Below, one piece after another: positions 6,397-64,000 of a DNA stretch of 64,000 bases. The stretch lies in contig CM073328.1 of the NCBI GenBank assembly GCA_037043015.1, forward strand, positions 18,263,495 through 18,327,494. Direction: 5' to 3'. The stretch is from Bryum argenteum. Lineage: Eukaryota; Streptophyta; Bryopsida; Bryales; Bryaceae. The notes below the pieces were generated by a model. The model had not been told where the DNA came from, ran no database searches, and saw only the letters and a program-made list of their open reading frames with translations. The translations under genes and the position numbers were made by a program. Every line of letters begins with the position of its first letter. Within the stretch, counting starts at the first letter, position 1.

Positions 6397-14952
<8,556 letters not shown>

Positions 14953-15635: not shown

Positions 15636-17757
15636 TTAACCCCTAATGGTGAGCAGCCTCAGAACAGCCAAAAACCCTCAAAACTGCCCTCTTCTGATGC
15701 AAGATGTAAATGTTTGAATTCTGGCAAGTGTTGATGTATGTAAGATCCACTACCTAACTTGTACATGTACATGCATACCAAGTTTTAAATTCAATTTCCT
15801 CACCATTTGTGAGATCGTAACAATCAAAGTTGAAGAAAAAGTTTATTTCCGTGTTGAAGTATGGCAATCTAATGTTTTGGGTGCCAAAAAACCATTTTGG
15901 AAGGGAAAGTTGACATGAGGCTCTTCATATCTTGTTTCTAGGTGAGTTAGGAACATGTTACGAACCAATTCTTACCCTCATGCGACCTATAAAACCTAAA
16001 GAAATGCATGATCTTTCACATGTAGGTATGCTGAAATTGAAATACAAAGGCCCATTTTCAACAATTGAGGAGACGTGTAAAGAATTGTTGGATTCAAGAT
16101 CCAAACGGGAAGACCCCATGCCTTACTACCTTCTCTAAATGAAAAAGAAACAAAACTTGCAAAAAAGATAGAATGTCAAAAGAAAATTGAAGTTCTGAAG
16201 TTCTTGTCTTTTAATTAATATAGTTGATTTTGAGAATAAATGAGCATCTACTGCAGTTTGGGCAAATTTGGGCAAATTTCAATTAATGGTTTCAAAACTT
16301 TGACCATGACTATCTCCGAAAGTATGAGGAATTTAGAAGCATGAGATGACATTTTGGGAAGGTATGGAAAAACTCTACAACCTGCCAAAGGGTCCAGCTT
16401 TATGAGTTAGATATCCAATCAAATAGAGGCTGGCTAGAAGCAAATTGACGTGATTCGAGTTGGTCTTGACTTAAGGGCTAATGTATCAATTCATGGTCTA
16501 AAATATCATAAACTATATTGGAACGGATTAGAAAGCTCATGTTTGGGATAACAAACTTTGAAAAACCAAGTTGGCTACATGCATGCAAAATTCTGGAATC
16601 CGATTTGGTGTTTTGAGCTTCTATCTAATTTTCTCGAGAGATCAAGGTCTAGAATGGCCATAGATTCTAGGTTTAGGACAACTTGGAATAGCGTAATGCC
16701 AATTTGGTATTTGCAAGATCCGGACGGTGAGGATGTGCATCAAAATATTTGGGCACAAATTTCATCAGAAAATTTAAAAATCTCCAAAACTTATGAATTT
16801 GCAATGATAGAACACCAACAAATTAGATATGAGGGAGAGGGGCAGCTACCAAATGCTGGCTACCATTCTTAGTTTCCAGTTCCCATTTTGCATCTAGTGA
16901 AAGGCAATACAAATGGTGGGGTCGCATTGTAGTGGACATCTAAAGCAATGAAAATTGAGTCAATATAAGGGCTTTGGAGCTATGACCTTGCCACCAAGGA
17001 GAAGATAAGGGTTCTACAAAGCTAAAATTGATAATCCGCACTTCGTCTAAGCCTAAATAGTAAATACCATACAATCGCAATAAATGTTATTCACAAGATG
17101 CCCTCCTCTACAACATTAATTGCCAGACACAAGCAAAAGGTTGCAAGAGTTGGATCAAAGTTAGTTGTTATCTGCAAGGAGTCGTGGAAATAGGTCATCG
17201 AGCCAAGCCATATTGTACCCTCCATCCAATCCCCGCTTTGGCTCTCCTAGGGAGTAGGAACCAAGCACATGGAGCTCCTAAGATTAGCTAGAGGCCTTTG
17301 CCGAGCTGGTAGACTCTCTAAAGCTATCTATCCTAGCTAGAAAGCCCTCGCCAAACAAGCGACCCCGCATGCCATAGCTGGAGCCTAAAGGCTCCAATGA
17401 TTGGCGCGCCTCGCGTTGATCGGCGCGCCACCCCTTCCCTAGGCCGGCTTTTGCGACCATCTTTCCACCTTTGGAATTGTATTGATTGAGAAGGCCTTTT
17501 GGATGTACCTTCATGCAAAATAAAAAACAAAAAACGCAAAACTACAACCTTTTGACAAATTGCCTAGCTCCATTGTGGATCGATGTGATTATGGACAAGT
17601 GTTTCAACATTCAAATACTTGCATCCTACAAAAGTATGATTGAAGAAAAACAATAGAGCAACAAAATTCTAGCAAAAATCAGAAAAAATATTATTTTACA
17701 GTATATTTCTTTGATGTTATGAGTGAAAGAAATTCAATTTGTATAAGAAAAACATAC

Positions 17758-18125
17758 TTAGGAATCAATAACAACATGCACGGCGTCGTGCCAATGCTTG
17801 TAGCAGCCTCCTATAGAGTGACACATATACTTACCGCCACATTTGTAATAATAAGTGTGAGGTTTCTCCACAAGGCATGCAAAGCATTGGTTGTGTTGCA
17901 CCGAGCAACAGGGAAGAAATACCTCAAGGCATCCTAGCACGAGTGGGAGGTGAGAGGGGTGCAAGAAACTGAGTAGCCAATCAGCTAAAGGAGAATCACA
18001 TAGTCCCTTCTTGAACTACAAATGGGTGTGGCTCTAGAGCGACGTTGGTTGAACCCCATAAAACTTTCCAAATAGTTGAAAATTTGAATGTCACTACTTG
18101 TGTGATCGTAGTTGAACATAATTTT
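17758..18125 (-). pseudogene. piggyBac transposase remnant, C-terminal part with Cys/His zinc finger
   Basis: On the minus strand this reads as the last ~130 residues of the transposase found whole at 62194-63999. It shows RSHK followed by two stops where the intact copy has two Trp, then THL-stop-FKKGLC, and a C-terminal zinc finger with CFACLVEKPHTYYYKCGGKY. The Trp and Gln to stop changes are G to A or C to T. It abuts a plus-strand fragment of the same gene. Confidence 0.85.
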
Positions 18126-18189
18126 TAAAGTAATGGTGACGATGTGGGGTCAGTTGAAAATTGAATCAAAATAAAATGGAATTATTGTG

Positions 18190-19255
18190 ATGAGATATGG
18201 AATGAGTCTAGCTTTTTCTCCAACCCCATGCCTTTGATGTTTTGTGGAACTAGGATGGGTCCCTCTTTCAATTTAAGAAGGAGGTTTCTATTCAAGGCAT
18301 TGTTTGGCTTTTTTGGACATTTTTTATGTTGAATGTCATTGTTATGGAACCATTACCTATGCATCTATACCCTACGCTGAGAATGGTACAAAGAGAGGGT
18401 GACGGTGGAAAAACATTACCTTGCCTAAACTTCAAGCATTCTTGGCCTTAGCTCTTTTCATGGGCTTGAAATCACAACCCAATTGTCCCACATATTGGAT
18501 GCAAGATGATTCATTTCATTGCAAAGTGATTTCTAATATCATGATTTGTCAGCCCAATTCCAAGATCTTAGGAGGTTCTTGCATCTCACTAACTTAAATG
18601 GAATTTTTAGAGGGCATCCCATGTATAACAAATTGGTCAAAAACGTTGATGAGTTGATGGAGTTAGAGAGAGGTGCACTTCTGCTTGGCATCTTGGTAAA
18701 CATTTGTCTGTTGATGAGATGATTATTCGTTTCAAGGGAACTTATTTCCCTATTCGGTAGTACATGCCTAAAAAATTGCAGAAATGGGGATTGAAGGTAT
18801 GGTGTTTAGCTTGCACGGTCTCAAAATTCCTATGGAATTTTAAGATTTAGTGTGGGAAGAAGGTAATCACTCCTCAAGTGTTAGGAGATGTAGTTAAGCC
18901 TCGACGTTCTATTGGTGATGGTAGATTAGCACACAACGTTGTTATAAGGCTTGTTGATGGCTTGTGGGATCATGGCCATTGTCTCACTGTAAACAACTTT
19001 GTTTCTAGTGTTGGCTTGTTTTCTTACTTATTGTCTTGTGGTGTATATGCTTGTCAAATAGTCTGGCTAAACCACATAGGCCTTCCTACATTTTTAAAGA
19101 ACACTGCGGTTTTCAAGAATACCTCACAAGGTACTACACATTGGGCGTATGCACTCATCTAGGTCTATGTCATGTATGATGTGGAAGGACAAGAGACTGG
19201 TTCAATTACTCTCCACCCACAGTATATCCAACTAGGCTCCTTGTGAGCATCTAGT
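18190..19255 (+). pseudogene. piggyBac transposase remnant, N-terminal to central part, inverted relative to its C-terminus
   Basis: On the plus strand this matches residues from about 75 to 425 of the 601-residue transposase, including the first catalytic region (VDEMIIRFKGTYFPIR), MPKKLQKWGLKVWCLAC, and GLFSYLLSCGVYA. There are several stops and frameshifts, and the second catalytic Asp is Asn (TVNNF). About 45 residues containing the third catalytic Asp are missing between this piece and the minus-strand C-terminal piece. The gene is dead. Confidence 0.87.
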
Positions 19256-20737
19256 TCTAACATATTGGATGAAAGTTAATAAGATAACACTTTCATAAAG
19301 CACAGTCCCCTGAGATATGTGTTAAAACTCACTAATGCGCTTCTTCATTATTCTTTTGCATCCCAAATCTTGTGTTATCCACTGAGATCATGCTCCTTTC
19401 CGACACTTTGGTTGTTTCTTATATCATCCTTATGCGGTTATGCCACCAGCCTCCTACTTTATGGCACTTAATGTAGCTAGTCTACAACTACATTGTCTTT
19501 CATACATTTTCTTAACTCCCATACACTCTAATGTCTAACATCACTCAATGTTCTATATTCTATCTATTATTTGATATTGCTAAATTCTAAATCAACTTTA
19601 TTTATCTAGAATTTGTATGTCCTAAAACTAACATACTTTTAGAGTTGTGCACCAATTTGATGATTTTACACTCTTTTTGCTTGACTTTGTTGTTGATTGT
19701 ATCAAGTGTAAAAGTTCTTGTTGACCAAATTTGGGTTTGTGAGTTTTTACCACCTTCCGTAAAGTTTCAAATTTTATTCTCTCTTCTTCAAGATTATGGT
19801 GGATATAGACAATTCAAGTAGAATGTTGGAGAAAATTTGATAATAGAAAGAGATATCAAGGTCGAGGAGTGTGAAACTTTGTGATTCTAGGCTCCAACTA
19901 CATTACCTATTTTATTTTAATATTTCAAGACTTTCTTTCAACAATTTTTGTAGGATATTTTTAACCAAAATTTTATTTAAGTTTTCAACTAAACGAAGTC
20001 TTAAAATGCATAAATTACGAAGGCATGAATCAAAGCTTGCAAAAACAAATTTGTTGTAGTGATTGAAAAAATTACATCTCACTTATAGTATCACGTATGA
20101 TAGAAAAATCAACAGTGCAATTATGGTAAGCACGGATGTTCCATAAAGCATAATTGCCCTTTACTTGTCTTTTTGCTCTAAAAGCATGGCAATTTTTTTG
20201 AAGGTGGTCCCCGAAACCACTACTTTCAAATACTATCCTTCTTGTTTAAATACACCTCATGTGTTTTATCACACCTTCAAGAGTGTTTTGCCTTCTAGAT
20301 ACTGTCCCAAAATATGAGTCGTATTTATTTTTCTTGTACCATTTTGCACTCACCGTAGTACCAATTATTGCGCCATTTTTGCACTCACCGTAGTACCAAT
20401 TTTTGCGCCATTTTGCACTCACCCTATTGTTATTTATTGATAGGATTTCATTGTACTCTCAAAAAAGACAACTTGCAACAAAAGTTGAAGCCCTACTTTG
20501 AATTAAGAATTTGTGATCCAACTACAAGACAACCTTTGGGCTTTGTGAGAATTTTTGTTTACAGTATGCACGTTTCAGTTGTTTTGTGTGAAAGTCATCC
20601 CCTCAAGTGAACATGAATGCAATAGGAAAAGCTTCTAGAAAAGTAAAATAATTCTCAAACTTCATTGATAGCTAGAATGTTTTAAGAAGCAAAGGTTCGG
20701 AGTAAGCATGCCACTTATTTTAGGATGAGGGAAGTAT
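19256..20737. other. AT-rich non-coding sequence, probably piggyBac copy A 3' region
   Basis: I see no gene here. Open frames at 19871-20059 and 20368-20610 have no recognisable features. A tandem repeat of about 32-34 bp with core TTTGCACTCACCGTAGTACC lies at 20339-20427 (two full copies and a partial one). Confidence 0.5.
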
Positions 20738-21664
20738 TTAACCCCTAAAAATCCAAGCATTTCCTCACCCTCTAAAACTAAAAACTGCCATTTTTCACCT
20801 CTGTTGGGAAATGGGGAATTGGAGAAACTTTATTTCTTGTTTTAGACTTTGAACCGTAAGATCTTGTACCTAACTTGTATATATAGGATTAGTTAGAATT
20901 TCAACCGTTGGATGTTTGTCATTTGTGGGATCATAACAATCAAAGTTTGTCCAACACTTTTTTTTGTCGTTGTCCGAGAGGCATTGTCTAGATGGTGCCA
21001 AGGGCAACTTGATGATTGTTACTCCAAACATTTATCCCTCATTTTTCCCATGTAAGTAATCAAGTTGGGTAGGCTCATGCAAAATTTTAAAGACTCATTC
21101 CACTTTTTGACCTTGATGTACATTATTTTATGAAAGAAGGTCTAGAAACAACAATATAGTAAAACAAGCATCACATATGATGTATTAAGTTTAGGAGAAA
21201 TTTGGACGGTGAGTAGGTGCCTTTATGAGTATGTGAATTTTGCAAAAAAAGATCTTGGAAAGAATCCAAAATCTCAAATTTTGGCAATTTTCGAAAGAAA
21301 AAATTGTAAAATTATTAGAAATTGAGAAGATTGTTTTTGAAAGTTTTGGAGGGTGCCCTTGTAAAATTGGTAAACTTTTTGACTTTGGAAACTTTGGAAT
21401 TTGAATAATAATTTGGAAATGAACTTATTTTAAAAAAAAAAACTTAAAAAGAGCTAATTTTAAACTGCCTGTTTTGGACTTGAAACCTAAAATTTTTAGA
21501 TGAAGGTTTTAAAATTAAAATTTGGCTTTGAAAATTTTACCACATACACATTACACTATGGGGAGCACCGAGTAAAAATCTTAGACAAAAATATAAATTT
21601 ATCTTCTTAAAATGATCTGCCCAAAATCTCAGAAAACCAAATCGGTTTTCCTGGTAGGGGTTAA
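20738..21664. mobile_element. Non-autonomous piggyBac derivative, 927 bp, with both ends
   Basis: The left end is TTAACCCCTAAAA (TTAA at 20738-20741) and the right end is TAGGGGTTAA (TTAA at 21661-21664). The first 10 bases are perfect inverted repeats including the TTAA target site typical of piggyBac. The block GGGATCATAACAATCAAAGT near 20927 is shared with the other left ends. There is no transposase; it looks like an internal deletion product. Confidence 0.8.
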
Positions 21665-23227: not shown

Positions 23228-23661
23228 CTCTCTCATGTATTTCAAGGCCTCCACACCTTACCGATTTCTATGTCCTTGTTGGGTATTCAAACACACGAAG
23301 TGAGTGAGTGAGTGAACGTACACAATCACAAGGTATGTTACTTGCTTTCTTCCATATTTATAAATTACTTAATTGGTAAGAAATACACATAGTGCTCCTT
23401 CATTTTGTGTGAAGAGTGTAATGCACAAATTTTTAATCTCAATATTTGTTATTGTGTTGGATAATATTGTACTTAATTGCTAAATGTGTACTTCTTAATT
23501 GCATTTTCATGTGAGCTTAAGAGGAAGAACCCAAAATTTAAAATTAGAATTAGGGTTGATGAGAAATTAGGGTTTGTTTATTAAATTGTATGCATTTTCT
23601 TAAAATGTCATTACTTATAAATGTGTGGGGATTGTTTTTATAGAGTTTCTTTGAAGCTTTT

Positions 23662-26600: not shown

Positions 26601-27032
26601 AATTCGTTGAGTGAACTCGACACATTATGTAAAACATCTTTGGATGGTGACAATGAAGAGGAGATGCAACGGAAATTCCAAGCCCTTCAAGCTTGCATTG
26701 CGACATTTTTGGAGCCTTCAAGTTTTGAGAGGCCAAATACAATCAATCTACCTCTTCGAGGTTCCATTCCTTTCATTCAAGAGAATGTGAAACGCACAAG
26801 GATAGGACATGGGAAGAAACATGTTATTTCGGAAACAGGAGAAGGTTCTACCCCACACCCCCCTTTAAAGGGGCCCTCTCATATGCTCCTAGCACACTCC
26901 AAGCAAAAACGGGCCATAGTCCGCAAGTTACCTAAAGTTACTTGTGAAATTTGTGCTACGAAGACATTGGTAGAGGGAGGAGCAAACTCCATTTTTTGCA
27001 AAAATTGTGACCATGAGTTGTTTGTGAAATAA
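23662..27032 (+). pseudogene. MULE transposase with SWIM zinc finger, decayed
   Basis: Coding blocks in order: an acidic N-terminus (23662-23990), a region at about 24140-24980, the DDE transposase core (25114-25860) with ALDSTFKT (first Asp) and SAIAIDKHKT (second Asp), the conserved Glu in NHVERHWELI (25898-25927), a clean GT-AG intron at 26067-26184, then a SWIM finger CNCPDRVSTCKHIYGV (26388-26435) and a C-terminal Cys-rich tail ending at 27032. The DDE residues are present. Premature stops occur where Trp or Gln is expected (in the 24.16-kb block, at about 25782 and at about 25820), and there is a frameshift near 24600. This is a once-autonomous element now unable to make full transposase, unless some stops are spliced out. 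Confidence 0.85.
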
Positions 27033-27245
27033 AATTTGAATTTTTGCATTTTTATTCTCCCTTTCATATAAATATTACTTTTAATCAATTTATTCTATAA
27101 TACAATTATGTTTCCACATACAAACATACAATTTGTGATTTCATATGAGTATATTTATAAGGACATATGGTGTGTTAAATTGTGTGCTAATATGGTATTC
27201 CCTTTAGGTAGGCATGCTCGAGGACTTAGCGTCTAGAGAGGGCCT

Positions 27246-27628
27246 CGCCCAAATGGCTCACAGTAAACTCGATCCTCCTGATGGCCTTCGAAAATCTGTG
27301 CACAGATTGCATATGCGGTTCTCAAGGCGCGGGGTTTTCTAGGCCGGGTATCGAGGGCGCTGAGTACGCAGCAGGGCGAACCGCGAACGGCGAACGACAG
27401 GGCTGCGTGGCAGCTCGGGCGGACTGAATCAAGCATGTGACAGGGCGGACTTAACTCGCGTCACGGGGCTGGTCAGACGGCACTCGTGCAGCGCAGGCAA
27501 TGCTGGATCGGGGCTGCGCTGGCTGACACGAGCTGGAGGCGAGGCCGCTGACAAAGGGGAGGCCGTAGGGCCGCTCAGCCTGACGCAGTCGGGCAACCTG
27601 AATGGGCGGGTAGGGAGAAGCGAGGCTC
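27246..27628 (-). repeat. MULE right terminal inverted repeat
   Basis: Reverse complement of the left arm at 22845-23227, with few differences. It ends just before a CT-rich stretch that looks like the 5' leader of the next gene. Confidence 0.85.
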
Positions 27629-37331: not shown

Positions 37332-37558
37332 CTAACCCCTAAAGTCCCCAAACTACCAAAAGGCCTCAAAACCACCCTCTCTCAATGTAACAAAAAACAT
37401 TTCAACTTTTCTAGTATGTAATTGTAACATCTCTCTCAATGCAACATAAAATATTTCAACTTTTCTAGTATGTAATTGTAACATCTTGTATGTAACTTGT
37501 CCAAGTACATGTATTCCAAATCTTAGCTGCAAGTTTCTCACCTATTGTGAGATCATAA
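37332..37558 (+). mobile_element. piggyBac copy C, left end, split by an hAT insertion
   Basis: CTAACCCCTAAAG at 37332 is the family end with the first T of TTAA changed to C. The sequence follows the family left-end pattern up to GAGATCATAA at 37549-37558, where the hAT element begins. It resumes after the hAT at 42317. It contains its own tandem duplication of about 55 bp (37375-37490). Confidence 0.7.
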
Positions 37559-40500
37559 ATAATGATTTTTTTACTGGCAAAAAATCGCCTAAAGGCGGAA
37601 TAATCATTAGTGACATGCCTTTTTGGCTAAAAAGTGATCCCTAGCCATTCAGTAGGGTGCCTCGGTGTCTCTAATCGCCACTGTTGAGAAGCCATCATTC
37701 GAGTAGGTTGGGTATCCTTTCGCGTGGAGTCATCTCTTGCAATCTCCGCCCCTAACTTTGGTATCGCCTGGCTGCGCTCATTTGGCCGTCAAAAGAGAAG
37801 ATTGGTGCCACTCCCAGTTTTTCAAGTTACTATGTATTCTATCATGATTGCTCAATTTTCGCCACAACTCGCCTTGCCTCACATAACGAATTCGCCAGAA
37901 TCTGCATTATACATTGTTGAGATTATATTTTCTTTCGCCACATTTGATGTACACTATAGAAATGTTCTTTATGTCTCCACTCGCAACAAAGATGAGGAGG
38001 TTTACAGCTTTAAAGAGTACAAAATATAAGGGGAATGATGAGTCAATAACTAGGGGCACCATGAGGTTGAAGGCGGATGAGTGCTGTAGGAGATTGTGGG
38101 TGTTCAGGGTTTCTGAGCGAGGTGATAATGTACACCGTCTACGAAGTCCAAACTCCAGAGAAGTCAATTGCGAGCATCCACCGTCTGATTTAGAAGTTGG
38201 TCCACATTCTGCAATCTGCAAGTCTGCAACAGTCTTTCAAAATCCATGGCCTTGAGGTTCACATTGCGCTTTAGGTTTGGCAAATTACAAGGTGTAAGTT
38301 GTTTCTTGCAAGCTCTCAGTTGCGTAAATGTTACGTGCACCGTTTAGGGTTTTTCATGCACGTTTCGGTTTTTTGGGAGGTGTGCCTTGTGAGCTCTTAC
38401 GTGTATGACTGTCATGTGCACTATTGAGGCTTTTGCTAGCACGTACATTGTTTTGAAATTGCTTTTCTGGACGTTGTTATTCTATCATGTGTCTATTTGT
38501 AACCAATAAGTGTGGATTTCAGGAAGATGTCCCCTGGGAGGTCGTTGCATCGGTTCTTTGCAAGGCTTCCAACTTTGGGATCATCCTCTGGTTCAGAGCG
38601 CTTACATGGTTGTGAAATTTCTGCAACATAAAGATCAACTTCAGAATCACTTGTACCATATACTACCAAAATGAGCAGCAAAAGTAGAGGGCAGTCAGTG
38701 TGCAACGTCCCTCGTCATCGTAGAGAAGAGAGACAGGCAAAGAAGCGGAGGTTGAAGTCGTTGCGCTGTCGTCAAAGGAGTCCATTGCAAACAGTCCCAT
38801 GCAAGAGAATGGGAATGAGAAGCTGCCAGAAACCTATCACTTTGAAGACTTTGACAACGAGGAGGACGAAGATTGCGACGTATAGGAGCCTGCTTAGAAG
38901 TAGGTGAAAAAATCCTACGAAGCAAGCCGGAAATTGAAAGATACGTAGGCTGCTCGACTTCCGTGGGCGGAGTTACATCGAGGGGGAGACGGCTTCCGTG
39001 GGCGGAGTTACATGAAGGGGGAGACGGCTTGTATGAATCCGTGAAGTGTCTTGTTTGCACAACTATTGAAGGTAGAGAGAAGATTCTTGGCCCTAAGTGG
39101 GACACCCTACAAAAGCATGGAGGTAGGAGAAAAGCCACACGTGACCTGACAAACGGCACCAGAAAGGGCCAGTAGTATCAAGACCTTAATTGCAAGCACG
39201 TCAAGAATGAACACATTTATGCGACTTGAAGCCGCAGAACTGTTCTGGAGCAAGTCACCGCTATGAAAGGTGAGCGAGGTCGTAAACAAATTCAGTTTGC
39301 CACCATCCTGCATTTGTTGCGTGAAGGACGTCATATGTTGGAGTATACTGCCCTTCAGCCACTGTTCACCTTTCTTGGTGTTCCCAAGTTGCCGAAAAAG
39401 CATTGGTCCGATGGACCTGGGTGGGAGTTGGCGGAGTGTTTGTTCGCACAAGTTCAATTGAAAACAAAAGTGATCATGGAGAAGGCTCGATTTTTCTCCA
39501 TCAGCTGTGATGAGGTATCTATGCTTGACACTCAAAGCTGGATCGACATTCATGGGTACGTTTGTGAAGACTCGCAGCGGAAATCCATATTGTTGTCCCT
39601 AGAGCGGGTTGTTGGTGCTGGCTCAAAGAGCACGACGAAGGTGATAGTCGATGCCATTCGTACGCATGGAGGTGTTAAAGACAAAGACCTACGAGCGAGG
39701 CTTACTTCATTTGGCGCAGGTAAACAGTAATCCTCCCCAGTGAGTCTCAACTTTGCACATGATTATCTTTGAACATGTTTTGGAGCAAGTTTGTTTTGAA
39801 ATGGATATGGTAAAGAACTGAAATGAGAAGAGGTGGAGGCAATAACATATTGGATTTTTGTACTGTTACAAAATTACCCAAATTTGTTGATACATGGTTT
39901 GATTGATTGTGCAGGTGGAATGAGCACTTTTCAAGGTAAGAGGACTGGAGTTGTTCAACAACTAAAGATGAACTACAATCCAAGGATTATCGGCATTCAT
40001 TGCATGGTGAGGATCTCTCTTCTTCTAACATTTACTGCACCATGTTCAATTCCTTTTTATTGTCATGTTCATTATTTTTTCACAAATAGGTTCATTATTC
40101 AAGTTGTCCGGCATGTTCTGAAGGTGCACTGATCTAAGTCTGATCTAATTGAATGCATCATTGTCTAGAATATTTGAGTTAAATGCATGGCAGTGACTTT
40201 GTAGAGATGTTTTAGTTGGGATCATGCATGCATGCAAAATTACATGCTGTCAGGGTTTGGGACTAGTCTACTATGGAGATCACTTCAAAGGTGGTAATTA
40301 AATTCAGTTCGGTGATTATTTGTCTTTGTGTAGGCCCATCGCACAAATCTTGTTGTGGAGACTCTTTAACTCTTCCGATTGTCCAACGCATTGAGGAGAT
40401 GCTGCAGTCATTGTATGCATTCTTTGCTCATTCACCGAAACGGCACCTCGAAATATCAGAAGCTAGCAAAAGTTATGCACTCCAAGGGGCTAAAGATCTT

Positions 40501-42316
40501 GAAGAACATTAAAACAAGGTGGATCAGCATGCTGTCTCCTGCCGCGAGGGTCATGAACGAGTACAGAGTACTCCTTGTGAAGATGCAAAGAGACTTGGTC
40601 GCACCTTTAGCAGACGGAGACGGGAATGCAAGAAAAAAAGACAAGGGTCTCATGAAGCTAGCGTCAAAGAACTTGGCCTACCTCTGCGATTTTAGAATCG
40701 TGCTTGGCCTTGCAGGTCTGCTACCTATGTTGCGGTCGGCGCACTCCCTCATTAAGTTCTCTCAAAGCAAGGAGGTCTTTGTCTGCTACTATGTCACTGC
40801 AATTCAAATCTGTGTTGCCGAGGTCTAGGCTATGTACGTGGATGAGGTCATTGCATTTAAACAGGACTTGTTCAAGGATTTTAATGCCCTCGATGAAATT
40901 CGACATGATGCTATTCCCATGTCTTGGGTGACCCCGGCTCTCGACTTAATCCAAGTTGGGGAGACTCTGTATTTTACCCCACGTGATCACAGTATCCAAG
41001 CTGTGACCCTCAATGCAAACAGAGGTAGTTCAACGCCCATCTCTAGGGAGCTACATGCAAGCATTTGTGATGATGTGAGGGCCATGTGTAAAGATAAAAT
41101 TCACCACCTTACATTGTCCGATCTAACTTTTAAATTTTAGTGTTTGTTTACACATCAGTTTAGAGGTGCTAATATTCTTCAATGGCCATGTTATAGGTGC
41201 AGCAGAGGTGCTCATAACACAGTTGCAGAAGCGTTTTCCAGCGTCCACCGTCATCGATGCATTCAGATTTGTATATCCACAGTATCGGCTAGTTCCCGGA
41301 GCAGAGGCATATTTTACACGACACTTGCAGATAATCAAATAGCAGTATGCTTATACGATGAAATTCCCTAAATCGCACGTGAAGAAGGGCCAGAAGAAGG
41401 GAGACGAAGTCACTAATGATCAATTGCTGAAGAGTGTGGAGCCTATCTTGTCCGCTGACAAGCTCGACGAGCAAGCTCAAATGTTTATCATGAAGATGAA
41501 GGCGAATTTTCAAGGAGCAATGAATGACGACTTGCCTCTGAATCCATTGACTCGCCTTTGGCGACGCCTGGAAGCATCCGGCCTCCTACGACACAAGCTT
41601 TCCGAGTACTTAAAGGTGGTGGAGATGGTTGTCATCACAGTATTAGGCAGCGTTGAAGATGAGAGGACCTTTAGCACTCTGTCGTTCATGAAGAACAAGT
41701 TGCGAAACCAGTTGAGCATCCATTTGCCCCTCGTGGTCGCGATGCATGCTCAAGAGCACTATGGCCTTGTCAACTTCCCATATAATGCCGCATACGACCT
41801 GTGGAAGACTCATGTGCGGAAGGTATATTAATTTGAATGTTGTTTCTGTGCAGGTTCCGGGGTCTATTATGAACAAGGGCCGTAGAGTTGGCGTCTGCTG
41901 ACTTGCGGCTCTTCAAACGCTCTGCGGCAATTCAAAGTGCCGAAAGCAGATGGTGGTTGCTAGTGCTTGTTACCATTTGGGTCAGCTGGTTCATTTTGGA
42001 GTGGTAGTCATGTTGTGAGGAATTAATGTCTGAAGCTCTGAATTGTAATCTCCAAGTCACATCTCTGAATTTTGAATTAGTAGCCAAGAATAGTATGCTA
42101 AGGAGTAGGTAATCGCCAAAGCAATTTCTATCTAAACAGACATGTCGCCTCATATGGCCAAAAACAATTCCTGTATATAGCCAGATATCGATGGCCAAGC
42201 AATATTGAATGCCAACGAACTTCACTAAACAAAATTTCAATACAGCCAAATTCTTGCTACCATTTCCTACTTAGTGGCCACCCAAGCATCGAATCAAAAA
42301 ATGTAGAAAAAACGCT
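37559..42316 (+). mobile_element. hAT element, 4.76 kb, with 8-bp target duplication GATCATAA
   Basis: GATCATAA occurs at 37551-37558 and again at 42317-42324. Both copies align with the single block GATCRTAACAATCAAAGT in intact piggyBac left ends (15811, 20927), so the interval between them is an insertion with an 8-bp duplication, as for hAT elements. It holds an hAT transposase on the plus strand. Terminal inverted repeats are weak (T-rich left start, AGCGTTTTTTCTAC as right end read inwards), so exact ends could shift by a few bases. Confidence 0.75.
38873..41831 (+). pseudogene. hAT-superfamily transposase with BED-like N-terminus, decayed
   Basis: Blocks in order: a BED-like finger region (39047-39230, KCLVCTTIEGREK then CKHVKNEH); a first catalytic block with SISCDEVSMLDTQSW (39484-39540); an intron at about 39722-39914; GKRTGVVQQLK and HRTNLVVETL; IKTRWISMLSP (about 40510); and a C-terminal dimerisation region with VLGSVEDERTFSTLSFMKN (41640-41697). 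Frameshifts near 40365 and 40460 and a stop at 40826-40828 break the frame. The 3' quarter (41211-41831) is still open. It fits plant or animal hAT families with a long BED-to-core spacing. Confidence 0.8.
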
Positions 42317-42620
42317 GATCATAACATTTGAAGTCGAGAAAAAAGTATTTTTTCACTTGTTGCAAAACGGGATTGAAGTTTTTCGTGAACCTCAAATGAA
42401 TTCTTGTGTTCACAAAAATTTAAGAGTAAATTTGAATTTAGGTTCTTTACATTTTTGTTCCTAAGCAAGTTAGAAACATGTGTGCAATATTTACCATCAT
42501 ACGACCTATAAGAAATTGCTTGAATTTTCACATGGAGGCATGTTGGAATTCAAATACAAAGGTCGGTCCTTGACAATAAAAATGGTATGTGAAATGGCAT
42601 GTTACTGCATTGACCCAAGG
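42317..42620 (+). mobile_element. piggyBac copy C, continuation after the hAT insertion
   Basis: The sequence after the second GATCATAA follows the family pattern (AGAAAAAAGT, then GCAAGTTAGAAACATGTG and GAATTCAAATACAAAGG), matching 15811-16090. Similarity to copy A stops near 42620, where an unrelated coding remnant begins. No right end was found. Confidence 0.65.
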
Positions 42621-44150: not shown

Positions 44151-45130
44151 TTAACCCCTATACGTCCCTAGTGTCGAAAAACGACATTTTGGATGAAGGG
44201 CAGAAACTTTGAAGAGCCATAACTTCTTCATCTAAACTCCGTTTTTGACGAAATCATTTGGGTTAGGTCACAAATCAAGTTTAGTTTATGTGGTAGAAAT
44301 TTCAGACTCATAATATAAAGTATGAATAAATGGCATGGATTTTAGTGAAGGCAAGTTTTGTTTTTGGGTTTTCAAACATTTGGCATGTTTTACCATTGCA
44401 TGCCAATTATGTGAAATCTAAAATATTTTTTCATGATTTTTGTTTCATAGGTTTGATATTTAGATGCATCCCAACAACTTTGTAGTTGGAAGTTTTTTGA
44501 TCTAAATAACTTTGGTATTGGCTTTGCAATGATGTTTCTCCGATGAAAAAAGTGAAAAAATGGATGATTTTTGAAGAGCTAGATCTCTTTTATCCACCGT
44601 TAGATTTTGACTTTATTTTTTGGGATGGATTCCAATTATAGTCTATTTTTAGTGGCAGAAATCTTGACCCAATTGAGGATATATTGAAGAAAAGGCATGA
44701 ATTTGAGTGCAAGGGGTCTAGTTTTGGACTATTTTTCCTTCGTAAAATTTTTGGCAGTTTTCACGACTACAAGGCTACTATTTGAGCCAAGATTTTTTTT
44801 TGATGCATTTTTTTGGTACAAGAGTGTCTTTGAGATGAAAATGAACAACTTTCTAGTTGCTGATTTTTTGATTGCAAATTTCATGTTGGTAGTATTTTCA
44901 CTTCAAAGTGGAAATGATGATATTTTGTATCCTGTTTTGCGCACTAATATGTTATGATCTCGCAATCTATGAGGTCCCATGAGTCAAGTTTTGGTCCACA
45001 TGATCTACTACAAGTCTATTACAAGTTTGTACGGTTGAGATCTGAATAGCTTATCTTTATTTTCATCTATATCACTTTTTTTGAAAATGAGTTTTTGGTT
45101 AAAAATATCCCAAAGACATTTAGGGGTTAA
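44151..45130. mobile_element. Non-autonomous piggyBac derivative, 980 bp, nested in the CACTA element
   Basis: TTAACCCCTATACGTC at the left and, inverted, TTAACCCCTAAATGTC at the right, each including the TTAA target site. The reverse strand near the right end contains GCGAGATCATAACAT, matching the family left-end block, so the element is in reverse orientation. There is no transposase. It inserted after the CACTA element. Confidence 0.85.
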
Positions 45131-45745: not shown

Positions 45746-46105
45746 GGCTAGGGTTTGCTGCCGCCGCCATAGTTAGGTCATGAGACCTTTAAGTAGAATT
45801 AGGGGTCGCACGAAGCTCATTTTTGCCTTTATTTTTTCAAGGAGTTAGTGTTTGGAGTGTAGAGGCTAAGGTTTGCTTCTTCATGTGGCTAGGGTTTGTT
45901 GCCGCCGCCATAGTCAGGTCATGAGATCTTCAAATGGAATTACAAAGCTCATTTTTGCCTTAGTTTTTCCAAGGAGTTAGTGTTGGGAGTGTAGAGGCTA
46001 AGGTTTGCTTCTTCATGTCGCTAGGGTTTGTTGCCGCCACCATAGTCAGGTCATGAGATCTTCAAATGGAATTACAAAGCTCATTTTTGCCTTAGTTTTT
46101 CCAAG
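45746..46105. repeat. Tandem repeat of 132-141 bp, nearly three copies, inside the CACTA element
   Basis: Each unit starts with GGCTAGGGTTTG.TGCCGCC and runs through TCATTTTTGCCTTA to GGAGTTAGTGTT. Copy starts are near 45748, 45889 and 46021. Confidence 0.85.
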
Positions 46106-47384
46106 GAGTTAGTGTTTAAAGTATAAAGGATTTCAAAATTGTTTCCTTTCAGTTTCAGAATGATTGTTAACTACAATAAGAGGATAGTATTTGTAGAAAT
46201 CCAGTAGCTCTCAAGAGTAGGTTTCCTTCTTCATGTGGCTAAGATTTGCTACTCAAGAGGTACTGGATTTCAAAAGCATCTTGTACAAGAAACCCTAGGA
46301 CTTGTAGTATTTGATTTGTTGTGGAGGAAACCCTAGTACTTGTTGTATTTGATTTCTTGTAGAAGATGTCTATGATGATGTCTGCAAGATGTCTTAGAGC
46401 ATGTCTATGAAGATGTCTAAATGTGTTGATGAAATTCTGTTTTGGAGGGTGGGACATAAGGGGTCGGGGCAGCAAAACAGGATCTGAGGCCGCGAAGCGA
46501 CATGCGTGCTTGTAGGTGAGTGAAACAGATGTATGCATAGATGTCTATAACGTTGTTTTTAATGATGTCTAGAAGGATGTCTGAAGAAATGTCTAAGAAG
46601 ATGTTTGCAAGAATGACTAACTGTGTCGATATCTTGAGGTTAGGAAGTAAACCATCTCAACCTAGGTAGTGCAATTAAATGGAATTAAATCAGATTTTTT
46701 TTACTTTTACAAACCCTTCTTTAAATGCAGTTGATACGGGCTTATTGAATATGTGTAGCGGCCGGACATGCACATGACCATACGGGTATCGACATCAAGC
46801 GATGGTAGTGGAGGGACTTACGGAGTTCAGATTGTGGGTGCGTAGTATATCGTAGTTGTTGACAGGCGTATTAGTAAATATTCTAGTTTGTGTTATCTGA
46901 GGTTTTAATGACCTAAGCAATATATGTTTGACTCATACTTTTTGATGTGATAGTGTTTACAGTTGATGTTATGTGAGACGTCTGTGGATTACGGATCTGA
47001 TGACTATATAAACATCTAAAAATGTCATCCTAGATGTCCTTTCATATGCCCAAAAAACATCAATAGTAACACTGTTGCAAACATCATGTTTAACACAAAA
47101 TATTCACATCGTTGTCCTAGGGGATGTCGCTACAAACATCCGAGCAAACATCACAAATTTAATAAGGACATCAACCTAAACATCATTCTACGCACTGAAA
47201 ACATCTTATAAGACATAAAAATTGTCTTCTAAGATATCTTGTAAGACATTGCATACGTCTCGCAAAACATCTTGTACAACATCTAAGATGTCTTGCAAGA
47301 CATTTAAGTTGTCTTAACTGATGTCTAAATCTATCATGATAGGAGCATAAAACCTCCGCAATATGCTGACGTGGCATGCCATGT

Positions 47385-48890: not shown

Positions 48891-51800
48891 TTTGGCCATA
48901 GTTTGGCGAAATAGGATCTGGATTTGTACTCGGATTAGATTCACGAGTTTCAATACAGACAGTAGGTAGGAATCTTTTTAGGAGAGCAAGCCGCTTTCCA
49001 AAGTATAGGCCTAGTGTAGACGGCTGCCACCAGGGTTTTAGGCCTTAGGGTTTTTCTCTGAGTACTTATATTAGGTGGAGGTTGTACCACCTAATTATTC
49101 CTTACTTGTTAATTAACAACCTCTTATGCATATATTGAATGTGATTCTTATATTGTCTCCTTTTGAGGTCAAGTACTTAGAAGTCTGTATCTACTGTCTT
49201 CGGCTATAAGTTGGGAGTTAGAAATTTGGATCTCTTGCAAAATCGGATTTGTGGGTTTGAAGCTGTGCTAAACATGTTGACAAGTGCCTTGTGTCTTAAG
49301 TCGAATCAGGTTTGCTGAGTGAGGGAAACGCTTGTTGGAACCACTTTATGACTTGGAATCACTTTAGGATCTTCTACGTGACCTGCTAAACTGTACTATA
49401 CGGATTAGTTGTAAGGAGATAATGGATGCCTTTGGATGTTTGTGTGTTTGGATAGTAATTAGACGTGGAATTTTCCGCCACTTAAAATATAAGAGAAATA
49501 GTATTTGTTCATCCCCTCTAGCAAAGGGATACCCTTGGCAATCAAGGTTAGAGTGCGGTATGGAGAGGAGTATGGATATGTGAAAAGGGTAGGAAAGGTT
49601 GGGCTTAGCGTTGTCAAAGTTGCTCCTCTGGTTTGGTTACTTCAAATAATCCTTGGAACGATACACGAGTCACTTTTGCACGTTTATTGCACTAATAAAC
49701 GCACAGAGAATATAATTGGGAGGGGCGTGGTCCGACAAATCTACATTGGCAAAAGGTTCCAACTTCATGCGAGCTAAATACAGTAAATAGTAAATACGAG
49801 GCTCAACGACCTCAAACGTCCCATTTTGGGCTCTTTTCAACATCAAGGGTGAAGACAATATGATGAAGGCTCAGTAGGCTTGGTTGAAGACAATATGCAA
49901 GATAGGTTTTACATGTGGGAACATGAGCAGTCCAAATTCACTTATTATTCCACTCAATATCTTATACTACTAATTATACTATTACTAACCTCACTAAAAA
50001 TTTCTTATTTTGAAACTTGCTGTAAGCAAATATCTTGTACATCGCATATCTGCTGAAAAAGATGTTAGTTGATGAGGTGTTGTACTATAAGAAGAGAGCT
50101 ATGAGCATCACCACCTATATAGAATGAAGCAATTGTGTAGGATAGGCAAAAAGAAAGTTCTAGAAAGTAAGTAGATTGTATGAACACATTTTGAGACCTA
50201 CCTTACATGCTAGGATTCTTTCTTAAAAGTCTCACATTGAATAACAAGGTAACTTGGAATAGTTCAATATGTTGAGGTGGTTAGTAATTGTAATTCTTTG
50301 ATGTAAAACTTGGCAACTCTTCAAAAACATGTTGGCAACCTATGGACTTTTGAAACTATGCCCCATTTGGGCTTAATGACTAACCTTGGCCTACAAAATC
50401 CAAGTTTTTGACTTTTACTTCAAGAATATTATCACATACACCTTGTATGTATAACTATACTAACATCAAATTACAACCTAGAATACTAAAATGTGACCCT
50501 TTATTTAAACTAATTGAAAAAAAAAAAAAAAAAACACTATCTAGAGAGCTAATTGCAAGTAGTCATCTTTTGTGTTGTTGTATATAGATCGTACATAGCA
50601 CATTGTATCACATTATATATTGACATCATACTGTATGTTACAACATCCTATGTAAGATTGTACATTGAAGTTATTTTAATGTGTATATTGTATGGGACAT
50701 CACAGAAGCCTATACCTTAAGACTATATGCAAAAGACTATATATTGTCAATCGTATAAGAAACCATACATCACACTACATACAACAAACCAAATATTGAA
50801 TTCTATGTACCACGTCTACAAAAAATATGATAGAACCATATAGTGCAATTATGCATTGTATGTTGTACAAGTTCTTACCTGTGTCCTCCAGACATGGACA
50901 TCAAAAAGGTCAAATGGAAATTTTAAAAAACATGTAATAAATCCAGATGTGGGTAGCATGTCCTTCGTTATCTTCGTTCCTAGTTCCTAGTTCTCCTCCA
51001 ATTTTCCCTTGATCTCTCGTTCACTCCGTCTTTGCTCTCATTTTGATGTTCTATAATCCTAATCCCTTTCACTCCTTGTTATATAATTGGGATCTTTATT
51101 AATGGTTCCCTATCTTTAAACTCCCGTTCTCGGATCCCATCCTTTGTTCAGTGTTCCCAATTCCCTCATCCCAACTCCCCTTCTTGGTTTCCATCATACG
51201 TTCCTAGTTCCATCATTTATTGGCTCTGTCATCATGACAGAGTCTTTGTATTGGGTCCAGCAACGATTTGCTTAAAAGTCCAATGACCTATCTCCTTCCG
51301 CACTCACACTTACACACGTTTTTTTTGAGTTTTTTCATTCTGCATTCACACTAGCAATCCTTCCACACGCTGTGCCCTATGCCTGGGCCAATTGGAACGG
51401 TAGCGAACGCGGAGAGTGAACACAGCCCCTGCATTTGCTGCTCGGACCCACGAGAAACGGCGACAACTAGCGACGAACGCTAAGCGAGCTCGTTGGAGGG
51501 CAGTGAGGCTTCGCGGGCGGTGAAGCGCCACCTTAGAGGCGAGGGCGGGCGGTAAAGACCTCTTTTAAGCAAAGGTGATTGCAGCCATGGTAGGGGCGGG
51601 GTGAGGGTTCGCAGCAGCTACCAAGAGGATGAGAAAGTGCCACCCCATCCTCCCTCCCATCCCTGGAATTTTAATTTGAACCCCCCCAAGGCCATTTTTG
51701 ATGATTTTGAATTCAGAAATGGGCCCTGCGGCCCCAAATTACTCTAGGAGCCTACTCCATGGCAATTTAAACCAATACACTAAAAAATTAGGGGGCTCCT

Positions 51801-55403: not shown

Positions 55404-55992
55404 TTCCAATACTCCAATACTTCAATACTTCAATATTTCAATATTTCAATACTTCAATACTTCAATACTTCCATACTTCCAACACTTCAATACTTCAAAT
55501 TCTTCAAATTCCTCAAATTCTTCAATTACTCCAATTCTCAATACCTCAATTACGTCAAAACTTCAAAACTTCAATACTTCAATACTTCAACACTTCAGCA
55601 CTTCAATACTTCAATACTTTATATACTTTAAATTCCTCAAATTCTTCAATTACTCGAATTCTCAATACCTCAATTACGTCAATACTTCAAAACTTCAATA
55701 CTTCAACACTTCAATACTTCAATACTTTATAAACTTTAAATACTTCAAATACTTCGAATTCTTCAAATACTTCAATCACTCCAATTCTCAATACCTCGAA
55801 TACTTCAAATACTTCAATACTTCAATACTTCAAATACTTCAATTACTTTAATTACTTCAAATGTTTCAAATACCTCAAATACTTCAAATACTCGAATCTC
55901 AATACCTCAAATACTTCAATACTTTAAATACTTCGAATACTTCAAGTACTTTAATACTTCATTTCTACAATACTTTAAATACTTAAATAATT
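55404..55992. repeat. Short-period satellite, 8-9-bp unit AATACTTC / AAATACTTC
   Basis: About 590 bp of imperfect AATACTTC units with 9-bp variants (AAATACTTC, AATTACTTC) and some higher-order repetition: blocks near 55490-55610 recur near 55630-55740. Long open frames over it (repeats of NTSILQYF) are by-products of the repeat. Confidence 0.9.
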
Positions 55993-59148: not shown

Positions 59149-60439
59149 ACTTCTCTCTATGACCAAATTGACCTTCGACCATTTCAAAATGTTCAAGACA
59201 ATATACTTCACAATATTGCTGGGTGGATGCTTGTTTGTTTAGCTTATGGCTGGCCTGTTATGGCTGGCCTGTTACTTGACGATTTCCAGATTGACATCTC
59301 TGTAGCTCTCGAGCTCTCAAATTCCATTAGCCGCTGAATTCACTTTGGAGAATCCACTCTAGTACTGAAAGTATCAGTTCAATAAGGATTTCTTAGTGAG
59401 TGTGATGACAAGGTGGAGTACAGATTTTTGGCTTCTTGCAATCATCAATTTACAACAACCAGACAATTCATCATGTGGAGTGTTCGCATTAGCATATGCA
59501 ACTGACGTTGCATATAAAATAAATCCTGAAACATCAATATACTATATTCCTGATATGAGACATCATCTAAGAGATTGCATTGCACAATCAAAACTAATAC
59601 CATTTCCTAAAAAAATATAATAATCATAACATATAAAATATGTATGAACAAATATATCACAAAATATTAAGATATTAATCGTCACTGGTAATGCGGAGAG
59701 CAGCGAAGCCCTAATTCTTTGATAGATTATATTTGGACAAACACCCGTAGAGTAGATGCTAAATATGGGATTACAGATGCATATTGGCCGGATCATCATA
59801 AACCTACATATTGTGCTTTTAAACTACCAACTACATTACCAAAGTTTTCAAAAAATACAACCTCACTACGATTTATTTGAACAAATACACATCAATCAAA
59901 ATAAATAAGATATAATTTGTAAACTCTTCAATGCTGGGTATTGTTATTGGAAACAATTGTGTATAATCCAAATACAACTTTTGTAATAAATACACTATGT
60001 AAATATTAAAATTGAAACAGTTGTCTATATATAATAATGTTCAATCATATTTTAAACTAAATATTGTATTTTCAACATTTAATAGTAAGCAAGCATAAAA
60101 TACCACACCCAAATATTAGACATTGAACATTAGGGATATCATATAATAATTTAAAAATAAACATTAAAAATTGCATATTAAATATTAATCATTGAATATA
60201 AGATATTAATCATTGAAAATTGGATATTACACTTTGTATAGATATTGTGGTTGTAAATAATTGGGTATACTTTACATAAAGTTTATATTATTTCATATTC
60301 AATTTTATCAATAAAAGAAACAAATGCACGAAGCGTAAACCAAATACCAAATTCACTATTTTGTATTACATTGGTTAATGTACGATTTTCTTTTAGATGT
60401 AGAGTGTAAGATAGAGGCCTTACGGTCCTACCGTTTTCT
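59149..60439. other. AT-rich region downstream of the P450
   Basis: From about 59600 to 60430 the sequence is strikingly AT-rich, with many ATATTAAATATT-like words and no conserved coding frame apart from the Ulp1-like piece at 59433-59620. It could be the body of a decayed mobile element. Confidence 0.5.
59433..59620 (+). pseudogene. Ulp1/C48 cysteine-protease-like C-terminal fragment
   Basis: The reading INLQQPDNSSCGVFALAYAT shows the Gln and catalytic Cys box of C48 peptidases (Q...N..CG.FAL), followed by MRHHLRDCI near the C-terminus. The His and Asp of the catalytic triad would lie upstream and are not seen. Such domains occur in several transposon proteins as well as in host SUMO proteases; the form with LQQ.DN..CGVFALA.A is closer to transposon-linked versions. 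The stop is at 59618. Confidence 0.5.
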
Positions 60440-60957
60440 TGTTCCTAGTACCTATCATTTGTTCATGGTTCTCATTATTTGTTCCTAGTTCCTATCCTAT
60501 GTTCCTGGTTCCTAGTTCTTGTTTCATGTTCCCTTAATCTCCTCTTCACTCCTTAGTCTGCTCCCATTTTACATGTTCCACATTCCTTGTCCCTTAGGAT
60601 GTCTTGTTTTCACTTCTTCTCAATTCCCCGTGCTTTTTAAGATTTATGGCATGTTCCATCCCCTAATTTTTTGTTAATGGTTCCCTATCTCCAAACACTC
60701 ATTCCTAATTGCCATCATTTGTTCCCAGTTGCCATCTTTGGCTCTCGGTTCTCCATCCTCTAACTTCCCTTCTTGGTTTCCATCATTCTTTCCGGGTTCC
60801 CCATTCCCCAACTCCCCTTCTTAGTTTCCATCATTCTTTCTTGGTTCCCCGTTCCCCAACTCTTCTTAGTTTCCATCATTTGTTCCTAGTTTCCATCTTT
60901 CGTTCCTGAATCTCATTATTTGTTCATTGTTCCCATCCTCTCTTCCTAGTTCCTCTC
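60440..60957. repeat. Degenerate repeat rich in TTCCTAGTTCC / TTTGTTCCTAG
   Basis: Many imperfect copies of words such as GTTCCTAGTTCC, CATCATTTGTTCC and CCATCATTCTTTC. A shorter related stretch occurs at 50960-51240. It ends exactly at the piggyBac TTAA site at 60958. Confidence 0.7.
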
Positions 60958-63900
60958 TTAACCCCTAAAAATCCAAGCGGTTTTTGGAGCTCCAAACACC
61001 AAAACTGCCATTTTTGACCACCGTGGGGGAATTGGGGCTTGATAATAAAAAATTTATTTTTTTTAGATCTCCAACCGTAGGATCTTGAAAATAACCCTAT
61101 TTTCAAATACTGTACCAATTTTGAACCGTTGGATGTTTACCATTTGCAAGATTATAACATTCAAAGTTGCTAATTTTTTTTTTTTGGCGACTGCCCGAGA
61201 GACAAAGTCTACTTAGTGCCAAGGGAGAGTTGACGATTTTTTCACCAAAATTTTTTCCCGTTCATAGATTCTTGTAGGAAACTAAGTTGGGAACAAGTGT
61301 GCAAAATTTTTTTTTGCCCCTATGCTTCAAGGGCCTTCAAATAAATTATTTTGTCCCGAAAGGTATGAAAATGCGGAAATTGCCAAGTTTGTTGAAAATC
61401 CGCATAGGGATAAATCTATTTACTTTTTGGAGAATCCCAACGGTGATTAGCTTCTTACATACAATTGTGATTCATGGGCGAAATTGGCATACCAAAATTT
61501 TGAAATCTCGCAAAGTTATGAATTTTCAAAAGAATGTCATGTAAATTGGTTTGTAATGAGAGACGGGCAAAGAGGCAATCTTGGGTCTCTCTCTTGGAGC
61601 CACTGACCCTTCATGCAAAAGTGCTTCATTGCATTGATGGAACTGTACACAAATAAATGGTTCTGACATATATGGCTGGATACGGGCACTAGCAATAATG
61701 AGACTGAACTTGGGCCAATGGCATGGGGGGGGGGGTAGCCCTCCGCCCAAGCGGTTTGCTTGTTGGGGAACCTCCCACCTCCATGGCAGCTCCTCGAACG
61801 TCGCACGTGTTCTCTGCTCCCTGGCCGCAGCGCTCCCAGCTCCATGTTGTGGCCTTGTTGAATGGGCCTTGCTCGCCCACGTGGCTGCTTAGATGGAGGG
61901 GTCGACGTCCCAAGTCATTCGGAATCCAGCTGAGGTGGCCTTTCCATCCTCTCTTCGAACCAGCAGCTTCGATTGCACAGGGAGTACTCCCAAACCTTGC
62001 AAGTCAATGTTGCAAGGTGGTAAACCTTTGGAATTGTAAAGATTATGGGTAGAAGTTCTAATACTATACATAATTAGAAGTTGTCATAAAACATATAAAA
62101 AAAACATGGGTAGAAGTTCAAAACAATATAGTTTGAAGTTGTGAAACAATATGATTAGTGAAATTAGCGAGTGTAGGAAAAACATACCCAAAATCAATGA
62201 TTGCGTGCTCGACTCGCCGCAAGCGCGGTGTGCCACCTCTCAAAACACCCCTTATGAAAGCACATCCACTTGTCCCCACACATATGGCAATAATAATGTG
62301 GCGAGCAAACATTACATACCACACATTTACGCCGCAATTTTGTATATGTAGGGATACAAATAACAGGTTCTCGCGGTGGTGGGGGAAAGTCAGTAGGCTT
62401 AGTGGATCTTAGTGGCCATTCCGCTAATAATACCTCACATAGACCTTTTTTGAACTGTAGGTGAGTCATGGGTGGCACAGGTCTACGATGTAGGTTGTAA
62501 TTTGCCACACAATCCAAGTAGATTATGTACATGTTTACAACGGTCACATCTAATAGGAAATAGAAAATTCGGTGCCACCACTTGTGTGAACGCACTTGGC
62601 AGCTGTAAGAGGCTCTGAGTTGATCCGCTACATCAACGCCCCGCATATGTGTAGTATACTCCAATAGCACGGGTGATGTCTGAATCTGCTCACGTGATGC
62701 ACCGTTGCGTCTTGGAACCGTGACCACCCTCTCACATGGGGCCTGAATAGGGTTACTGTGAGTAGAGATGAGCAGAACAAGTTTCTTGTCCTTCCACATG
62801 ACACAAGAAACCTTCCTAGACTCATGCATCTTCCAAACAAGAGTGCCCTGAACAGCGTTCTTGAAAGATGCCACATTCTTCAAAGCTGTGGGCAAGCCAA
62901 CCCGATTTGCACGCACGGTACCACTTGCATAGACACCTCTAGAAAGCAAATAAGAAAATAATCCTATGCTAGAGAAGAAGTTGTCCATAGTAATCACATG
63001 ACCAACATTCCAACAACCTTCTAGAAGTCTAACCACCACATTGTTAGCCAATCTAGCATCATCTACTACAGGCACCGGTTGAAGAGGAGGCATTGTGTCA
63101 TCCTTCCCACAATAAACCTCAAAATTCCACACATATTTCGAAACCGAGCAAGCTAGGCACCATACCTTCAAGCCCCATTTCTGGGGCTTTTTAGGCATGT
63201 ACTGTCGAATAGGGGAGTAAGTGCCTTTGTATCTAATCATCATCTCATCCACGGTTAGATGCTTACCAAGATACCAACCTACCTTACACCGTTCCCTTAT
63301 GGCGTTTACTAACCACCTAGTTTGACCAAGTTTATCATAACCAACAGACCCTCTAACAATTCCATCGACGTTGGTGATGTGAAGACACCGCCGCAATTCC
63401 TGGAACCTCTGTCTAGTGCAAATGGAAGAGATGATAGGACAACGAAATAAATCATCAGACATCCAATATGTATAATAATTTGGCTGCACTCTAAGCCCCA
63501 TGTAAATAGCCAAAGCCATGAACGCTTGGAGCTCAATAATGGTCAAATTGGTCCAACGTGGACCACCCTTAGTGTTACCAAGTGCATCAATTGGACAATT
63601 AGCATAGCGGTTTGTTTCTTCAACAATTGAAGTCAAAATCTCAGTAGTCCAAAAGAAGTTGAATAATTGCATGAAGGAGGGAAGAGTGCGGTAGTATCTC
63701 CTAGGACCTCTCCTAGGACCGCTAAAAATGTTGGGTTGAGGACTATAAGTGAAATTAGTGTCTCTCCAAGTCTCATCTCGAAACTCCCATTTTAGGCCCG
63801 TTTGATCATGAATGGAACCCCGATTTTCATTTTCCTCATCACTTTCCAATTCACTCTCAATGTTTGGCATTTCCTCACTTTCATTACCTCTTTGTGCATT

Positions 63901-64000
63901 ATTAGGAAAAAATTCATTTATGTCACCATTGTCTACCTCAAAGTCATCATTTTCGTCATATGCCATTGTCCCCCACGCTGGACCAGCGTTCAGAGACATA
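60958..64000 (-). mobile_element. piggyBac element copy E with intact transposase (right end beyond window)
   Basis: TTAACCCCTAAAA at 60958 is the family left end. The following 1.2 kb is non-coding and shares blocks with the other copies (AACCGTAGGATCTTG, GATTATAACATTCAAAGTTG). A G-run lies at 61724-61735 and a GC-rich patch at 61730-62010. The transposase is on the minus strand from 63999 to 62194, so its 5' terminus lies past the right edge. Whether both ends are intact cannot be told here. Confidence 0.85.
62194..63999 (-). CDS. piggyBac transposase, 601 residues, uninterrupted
   Basis: One intronless open frame. Regions: acidic N-terminus (residues 1-70), DDE_Tnp_1_7-type core (about 100-500), and a C-terminal Cys/His zinc finger (559-590) with CVVCNVCSPHYYCHMCGDKW. 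The three catalytic Asp fit D251 (LTVDEMM), D339 (ITMDNFF) and D456 (MRGVDVADQ). MPKKPQKWGLKVWCLA and RSHKWWHRIFYFLLD are further family landmarks. piggyBac transposases excise precisely from TTAA sites without leaving footprints. The start is taken as the ATG at 63997-63999; Met12 is an alternative, and the frame could extend past the window. With no stop or frameshift and all catalytic residues, it may still be active and could mobilise the short copies at 20738 and 44151. It could also be a domesticated PGBD-type gene, but the nearby TTAA end argues for a transposon. Confidence 0.9.
   Translation of the reverse strand: MSLNAGPAWGTMAYDENDDFEVDNGDINEFFPNNAQRGNESEEMPNIESELESDEENENRGSIHDQTGLKWEFRDETWRDTNFTYSPQPNIFSGPRRGPRRYYRTLPSFMQLFNFFWTTEILTSIVEETNRYANCPIDALGNTKGGPRWTNLTIIELQAFMALAIYMGLRVQPNYYTYWMSDDLFRCPIISSICTRQRFQELRRCLHITNVDGIVRGSVGYDKLGQTRWLVNAIRERCKVGWYLGKHLTVDEMMIRYKGTYSPIRQYMPKKPQKWGLKVWCLACSVSKYVWNFEVYCGKDDTMPPLQPVPVVDDARLANNVVVRLLEGCWNVGHVITMDNFFSSIGLFSYLLSRGVYASGTVRANRVGLPTALKNVASFKNAVQGTLVWKMHESRKVSCVMWKDKKLVLLISTHSNPIQAPCERVVTVPRRNGASREQIQTSPVLLEYTTHMRGVDVADQLRASYSCQVRSHKWWHRIFYFLLDVTVVNMYIIYLDCVANYNLHRRPVPPMTHLQFKKGLCEVLLAEWPLRSTKPTDFPPPPREPVICIPTYTKLRRKCVVCNVCSPHYYCHMCGDKWMCFHKGCFERWHTALAASRARNH

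Follow-up and report, generated by a model that had tools for sequence, protein, structure and literature searches.

The window (the whole stretch of DNA analysed here, 64,000 nucleotides, G000:C8:18263495-18327494 of a 258.8-Mb assembly in 25 contigs) ends within a piggyBac element, E3, and contains several relatives and derivatives of it (Table 1). The transposase frame of E3 adjoins a TTAACCCCTA end, as the first-pass annotation had reported; that annotation listed it as 60958..64000, and in the record that extends beyond the window (L009) E3 continues to window-equivalent 66659 (G000:C8). The right terminus with TTAA that the annotation asked for past 64,000, and whose absence would have refuted it, was found there as TAGGGGTTAA, which occurs once in this record, and the whole element measures 5,702 bp with both TTAA counted. 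Its terminal inverted repeats start with CCC (TTAACCCCTAAAAATCCAAG) and are identical over 20 bp at both ends, TTAA included. The window contains 6 exact copies of TTAACCCCTA; 100 shuffles averaged 0.14 copies, and every one of them had fewer than 6. The subterminal motif AAAACTGCC was found in 3 plus-strand copies, each 43–44 nt from a TTAACCCCTA end, and in one minus-strand copy (44753) away from that position. TTAA was present at both junctions of E3, of the short elements E1 and E2 and of 13 other cut-out copies; apart from the left end of E3 this is partly by construction, as ends were sought with TTAACCC patterns. A GC-rich block (61708-62007, 55–65% GC) between the left end of E3 and the transposase had no match elsewhere in the window and is possibly a captured fragment or a later insertion. 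E3 lies at the edge of a TTCCTAGTTCC-rich repeat (60419-60950), and a similar stretch occurs 9 kb off (50976-51211).

Table 1. Features of the piggyBac family in the window; positions above 64000 are window-equivalent.
Feature	Position	Strand	Evidence or remark
E3 piggyBac element, in-window part	60958..64000	-	TTAACCCCTA at 60958, TAGGGGTTAA at 66650-66659
Left (transposase 3') terminus of E3	60958..60977	+	20 bp, same as right terminus
Subterminal motif AAAACTGCC of E3	61001..61009	+	43 nt from end
ORF2, transposase core and Cys/His domain, running past the window	62194..64000	-	PF13843, DDD alignment, 925-codon frame
E0, decayed relative: left end, non-coding blocks collinear with E3, transposase C-terminal fragment 17779-18027(-)	15636..18027	-	
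Dead piggyBac transposase fragment, residues about 58-426	18138..19256	+	tblastn, 59% identity over 172 residues (best segment)
E1, short non-autonomous piggyBac element, both TTAACCCCTA ends	20738..21664	.	left 361 bp 69% identical to E3
Decayed end (CTAACCCCTA) related to E0	37332..37558	+	
Decayed subterminal piece related to E0	42317..42577	+	
E2, second short non-autonomous element, both TTAACCCCTA ends	44151..45130	.	

Within the window the transposase is encoded by a stop-free ORF of 601 codons (62194..63999, minus strand); when the window was shuffled 20 times by mononucleotides, stop-free runs reached at most 208 codons. The 601-residue frame described earlier is free of stops, but its length is an artefact of the window edge, and in L009 the frame is open over 925 codons from stop to stop. 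The earlier assignment to piggyBac was borne out by a match to PF13843 (DDE_Tnp_1_7) at 1e-76, in which residues 110-489 were aligned with positions 3-347 of the 349 of the profile. A search of the PDB with the sequence alone returned Trichoplusia ni (T. ni) piggyBac (6x67, 1.2e-27) and piggyBat (9c0f, 4e-26). All residues of the proposed D251/D339/D456 triad were present and aligned with D268/D346/D447 of 6x67, with D459 and W474 opposite D450 and W465. The C-terminal Cys/His finger, likewise proposed before, was recovered as a region from C559 to H590 that aligned with the domain of piggyBat 9c0f, the alignment running through residue 591; this domain gave no separate Pfam match. An NCBIfam search with protein P0001 returned nothing.

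Comparison with other copies placed the ORF2 start near the end of an upstream exon. The relatives, from which the start and one short intron were read, suggest a predicted product of about 912 aa (10 + 902) for E3. The long N-terminal extension of ORF2 has the typical form M[PG]xRRSxKRxK[EQ]|MEWDGIPVRRSSRL...LWPPE, where the bar marks the intron position; an alignment of 13 different copies showed that exon 2 opens with a conserved module of ~110 residues, closed by LWPPE, and E3 also has one. In the other copies examined the intron begins at an AG|GT donor and ends at an AG|ATGGARTGG acceptor, and in L027, L028 and L034 it is absent exactly at the AG|ATGGARTGG site. Its length is 211 nt in E3 versus 77–106 nt in relatives with the donor correctly read. 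The ORF2 ATG is absent from L041.

Upstream of ORF2, in another frame, lies a second reading frame (ORF1) with a conserved domain of ~86 aa, which was found in 31 of 46 locus records, equal to 29 of 40 distinct places besides E3 (E ≤ 1e-4); further comparison also found it in L010, L011 and L012. The domain of L012 (7663-7947, 27% identical) belongs to a third, diverged piggyBac group, and ORF1 occurs across three divergent transposase groups. It was not found in L014 (8.5 kb searched), nor in L007, L008, L039, L040, L042, L043 and L047 (about 1.5 kb of flanks searched). Median dN/dS of ORF1 was 0.19 (49 of 91 pairs, with estimable dS >0.2); the shifted-frame controls gave 1.40 (78 pairs) and 1.63 (77 pairs). 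The predicted structure of the domain is helical (pLDDT 89.4), and its basic middle (RKKSRxWPK...FRHHFYRQ) would fit binding of nucleic acid or chromatin. ORF1 had no match in Pfam at E ≤ 0.01 and no relatives in the PDB at the thresholds used. The ORF1 stretch of E3 comprises 324 codons and no Met, so that its translation would have to begin at a non-AUG codon or in a further exon upstream that was not seen. Frameshifts or a stop interrupt ORF1 in some copies (L010, L019, L031, L035 and L041). The ORF1 stop of E3 was considered as a disabling mutation and rejected as such, since L013, L044, L045 and L048 have the same stop point.

Elsewhere in the window the decayed relative E0 shares two non-coding matches with E3 (52.5 and 35.4 bits, against no more than 29.7 bits for any of 18 control stretches), and because its end, non-coding blocks and transposase C-terminus follow one another as they do in E3, the end and the ORF of E3 can be assigned to one element. 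The dead transposase fragment has frameshifts and stops, and Asn stands at the position of the second catalytic Asp; compared with E3 over 163 codons it gave dN 0.28 and dS 1.75 (dN/dS about 0.16), so that these lineages are old. The core of E3 as first annotated stood; that annotation had overlooked the second ORF, the longer intron-bearing transposase, the dead copy at 17.8–19.3 kb and two complete short elements.

A first look through the genome with PF13843 gave 776 candidates, the best 116 of which, E3 included, were scored and were all above the cut-off. These copies lie on contigs C1-C11 and C13, and the matched domain was stop-free in 93 of the 116 (counted by hand), a share in which intact copies are favoured by the choice of the best candidates. 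A DNA search with the E3 transposase gave 42 matches including itself (212 candidates, 40 scored); among those scored, the nearest full-length relative was 76% identical and partial matches reached 78%. As the best full-length match is only 76%, no recent amplification of the E3 subfamily is indicated, and the recent activity first read from the uninterrupted E3 copy was not upheld; it is real in a sister subfamily (L020-L026). There, L021-L026 were 99.75–99.84% identical to L020 over 5.7 kb (3–5 substitutions and 5–10 gap columns each) with different flanks, while L019 and L020 were 98.1% identical. TTAA stood on both sides of five of the six copies L021-L026 and TTAT on both sides of L023. 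The latter, a full-length recent copy placed by alignment at 1753-7452, has in these flanks a non-canonical target with a 4-bp duplication. Among the eight copies of this recent-burst type (L019-L026) the ORF2 frame runs through the Cys/His domain only in L020; four others stop at 824 codons, short of that domain, and three at 415, which suggests mobilisation in trans. A tree that comprised E3 and 19 further copies, with piggyBat as outgroup, gave L030 and L032 as the sisters of E3 (support 97/95). Its outgroup branch was very long and 8 of 18 inner branches were open, and the tree was used only for the sisters of E3.

TTAA junctions, 20-bp inverted ends, a DDD core, a Cys/His domain, dispersed copies, short derivatives and near-identical copies in the sister subfamily together identify a piggyBac transposon family. 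E3 is accordingly regarded, with good confidence, as a complete cut-and-paste piggyBac transposon of a large endogenous plant family, in which ORF1 is most likely an accessory protein. The biochemistry of piggyBac includes nicking, hairpin intermediates and seamless excision. By extension from it, the ORF2 transposase would bind the ends and the subterminal AAAACTGCC motif, would cut at the TTAA junctions via hairpin intermediates, and would insert the element at a new TTAA, leaving the donor site seamless. Whether E3 itself is a recently inserted and currently autonomous element is more doubtful: its ORF2 and ORF1 domain are intact and its ends identical, but it has no close sister copy and its intron (211 vs 77–106 nt) is longer than those of its relatives, so that we consider this possible and on balance improbable.

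For ORF1, a separate accessory protein is most likely by analogy with the two-gene Harbinger elements, and it would perhaps be a basic partner that binds the ends or chromatin or assists nuclear import. The ORF1 frame ends beside or overlapping the ORF2 start. That it reaches, and often overruns, this start in an adjacent frame would suit a joining of ORF1 to ORF2 by ribosomal frameshifting or alternative splicing into one long transposase; this is judged unlikely, given that the intronless copies L027 and L034 keep the offset between the two frames and that the ORF1 stop lies just ahead of the ORF2 start in E3 and in the four copies that share it. We advance only tentatively the wider proposal that plant piggyBac elements are two-gene transposons, in which a helical ORF1 protein of new fold, conserved across divergent groups, is required in trans for transposition, and which would be the first piggyBac branch with an accessory protein, in more than 100 copies and recently jumping.

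A domesticated transposase gene, retained for a host function, would account for an intact transposase frame, for the absence of any E3 transposase copy above 76% at full length (40 of 212 candidates scored) and for the dN/dS of about 0.16 in the comparison with the dead in-window copy. The same value is equally expected from purifying selection before insertion, E3 keeps identical 20-bp termini and TTAA at both junctions, and in the genome at least 115 other copies were scored, along with short derivatives and a recent burst. PGBD-like domesticated genes are single copy and lack terminal repeats, in both of which E3 differs (terminal repeats present, at least 115 scored relatives). Domestication is therefore held to be very improbable; the single-copy form of it, raised in the first-pass annotation, is opposed by the 115 other scored copies, the kept termini and the short derivatives, with the proviso that the E3 subfamily has no close sister.

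Like E3, T. ni piggyBac uses TTAA as its target and has ends starting with CCC. The T. ni protein (6x67/6x68) shares with E3 the PF13843-type core, the DDD triad and the equivalents of D450 and W465, at about 27% identity in the aligned part. E3 differs from it in its longer N-terminus, in the intron close to its start and in the second ORF that lies upstream. The piggyBat element of Myotis lucifugus (9c0f), which is not known to have a second gene, resembles E3 in its core and in an alignable Cys/His domain, with about 29% identity in the aligned part. PIF/Harbinger elements have a second ORF beside the transposase ORF, as the E3 family does; in Harbinger the second ORF encodes a Myb/SANT-like protein. 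Harbinger differs from the E3 family in transposase family and target site, and ORF1 of the E3 family has no Pfam match at E ≤ 0.01; protein-level selection on the second ORF, a mark of the Harbinger type, was found for ORF1 (dN/dS 0.19).

The piggyBac transposon, taken from animals, is a standard tool for gene delivery. If the two-gene reading of the E3 family is true, it would offer a natural plant piggyBac system with more than 100 scored copies, some from a very recent burst, and with short derivatives as well as a conserved second gene, and raises the question of whether the plant branch needs an accessory protein that animal elements manage without. The occurrence of piggyBac in plants is already known, and a two-ORF form was not found described in the literature searched (one library only). 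In the text available from two sources, piggyBac-like elements are stated to occur in plants (PMC8086355, citing a survey; PMC10813416), and the first of these gives piggyBat simple 15-bp terminal repeats. The repeat table of a paper on the fern Ceratopteris, of RepeatMasker type, has a line with 1,230 PiggyBac elements and 122,417 bases (PMC6890710); like the present case this is a land-plant annotation, and that part of the paper gives a table line only and no element structure. The corresponding part of a pomegranate paper lists 0 PiggyBac elements, and in the parts available of the plant papers piggyBac figures as a tool, by name only in a superfamily list or in one line of a repeat table.

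The plant host named in the first-pass annotation was supported by a receptor-kinase fragment in the window, whose best PDB matches were SymRK kinases, together with a P450 fragment in the same window. Animals are the best-known source of piggyBac, yet contamination of the assembly with animal or fungal DNA can be practically dismissed, because plant-type genes in the window stand among copies, dead copies and short elements, and relatives occur on contigs C1-C11 and C13. A tRNA search of the window with ARAGORN was negative. The ORFs at 39263-41831 and 59396-59620 resemble pieces of a hAT-type transposase and an Ulp1-type protease; Pfam gave no match to them at 0.01. Two local tandem duplications were noted (45746-46129 and 55405-55989). 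A Mutator-like element (22856-27617) is bounded by 372-bp inverted copies (22856-23227 and 27246-27617) that are 96% identical; it is possibly young, and an ORF between the inverted copies (25091-25780) contains a MULE transposase domain.
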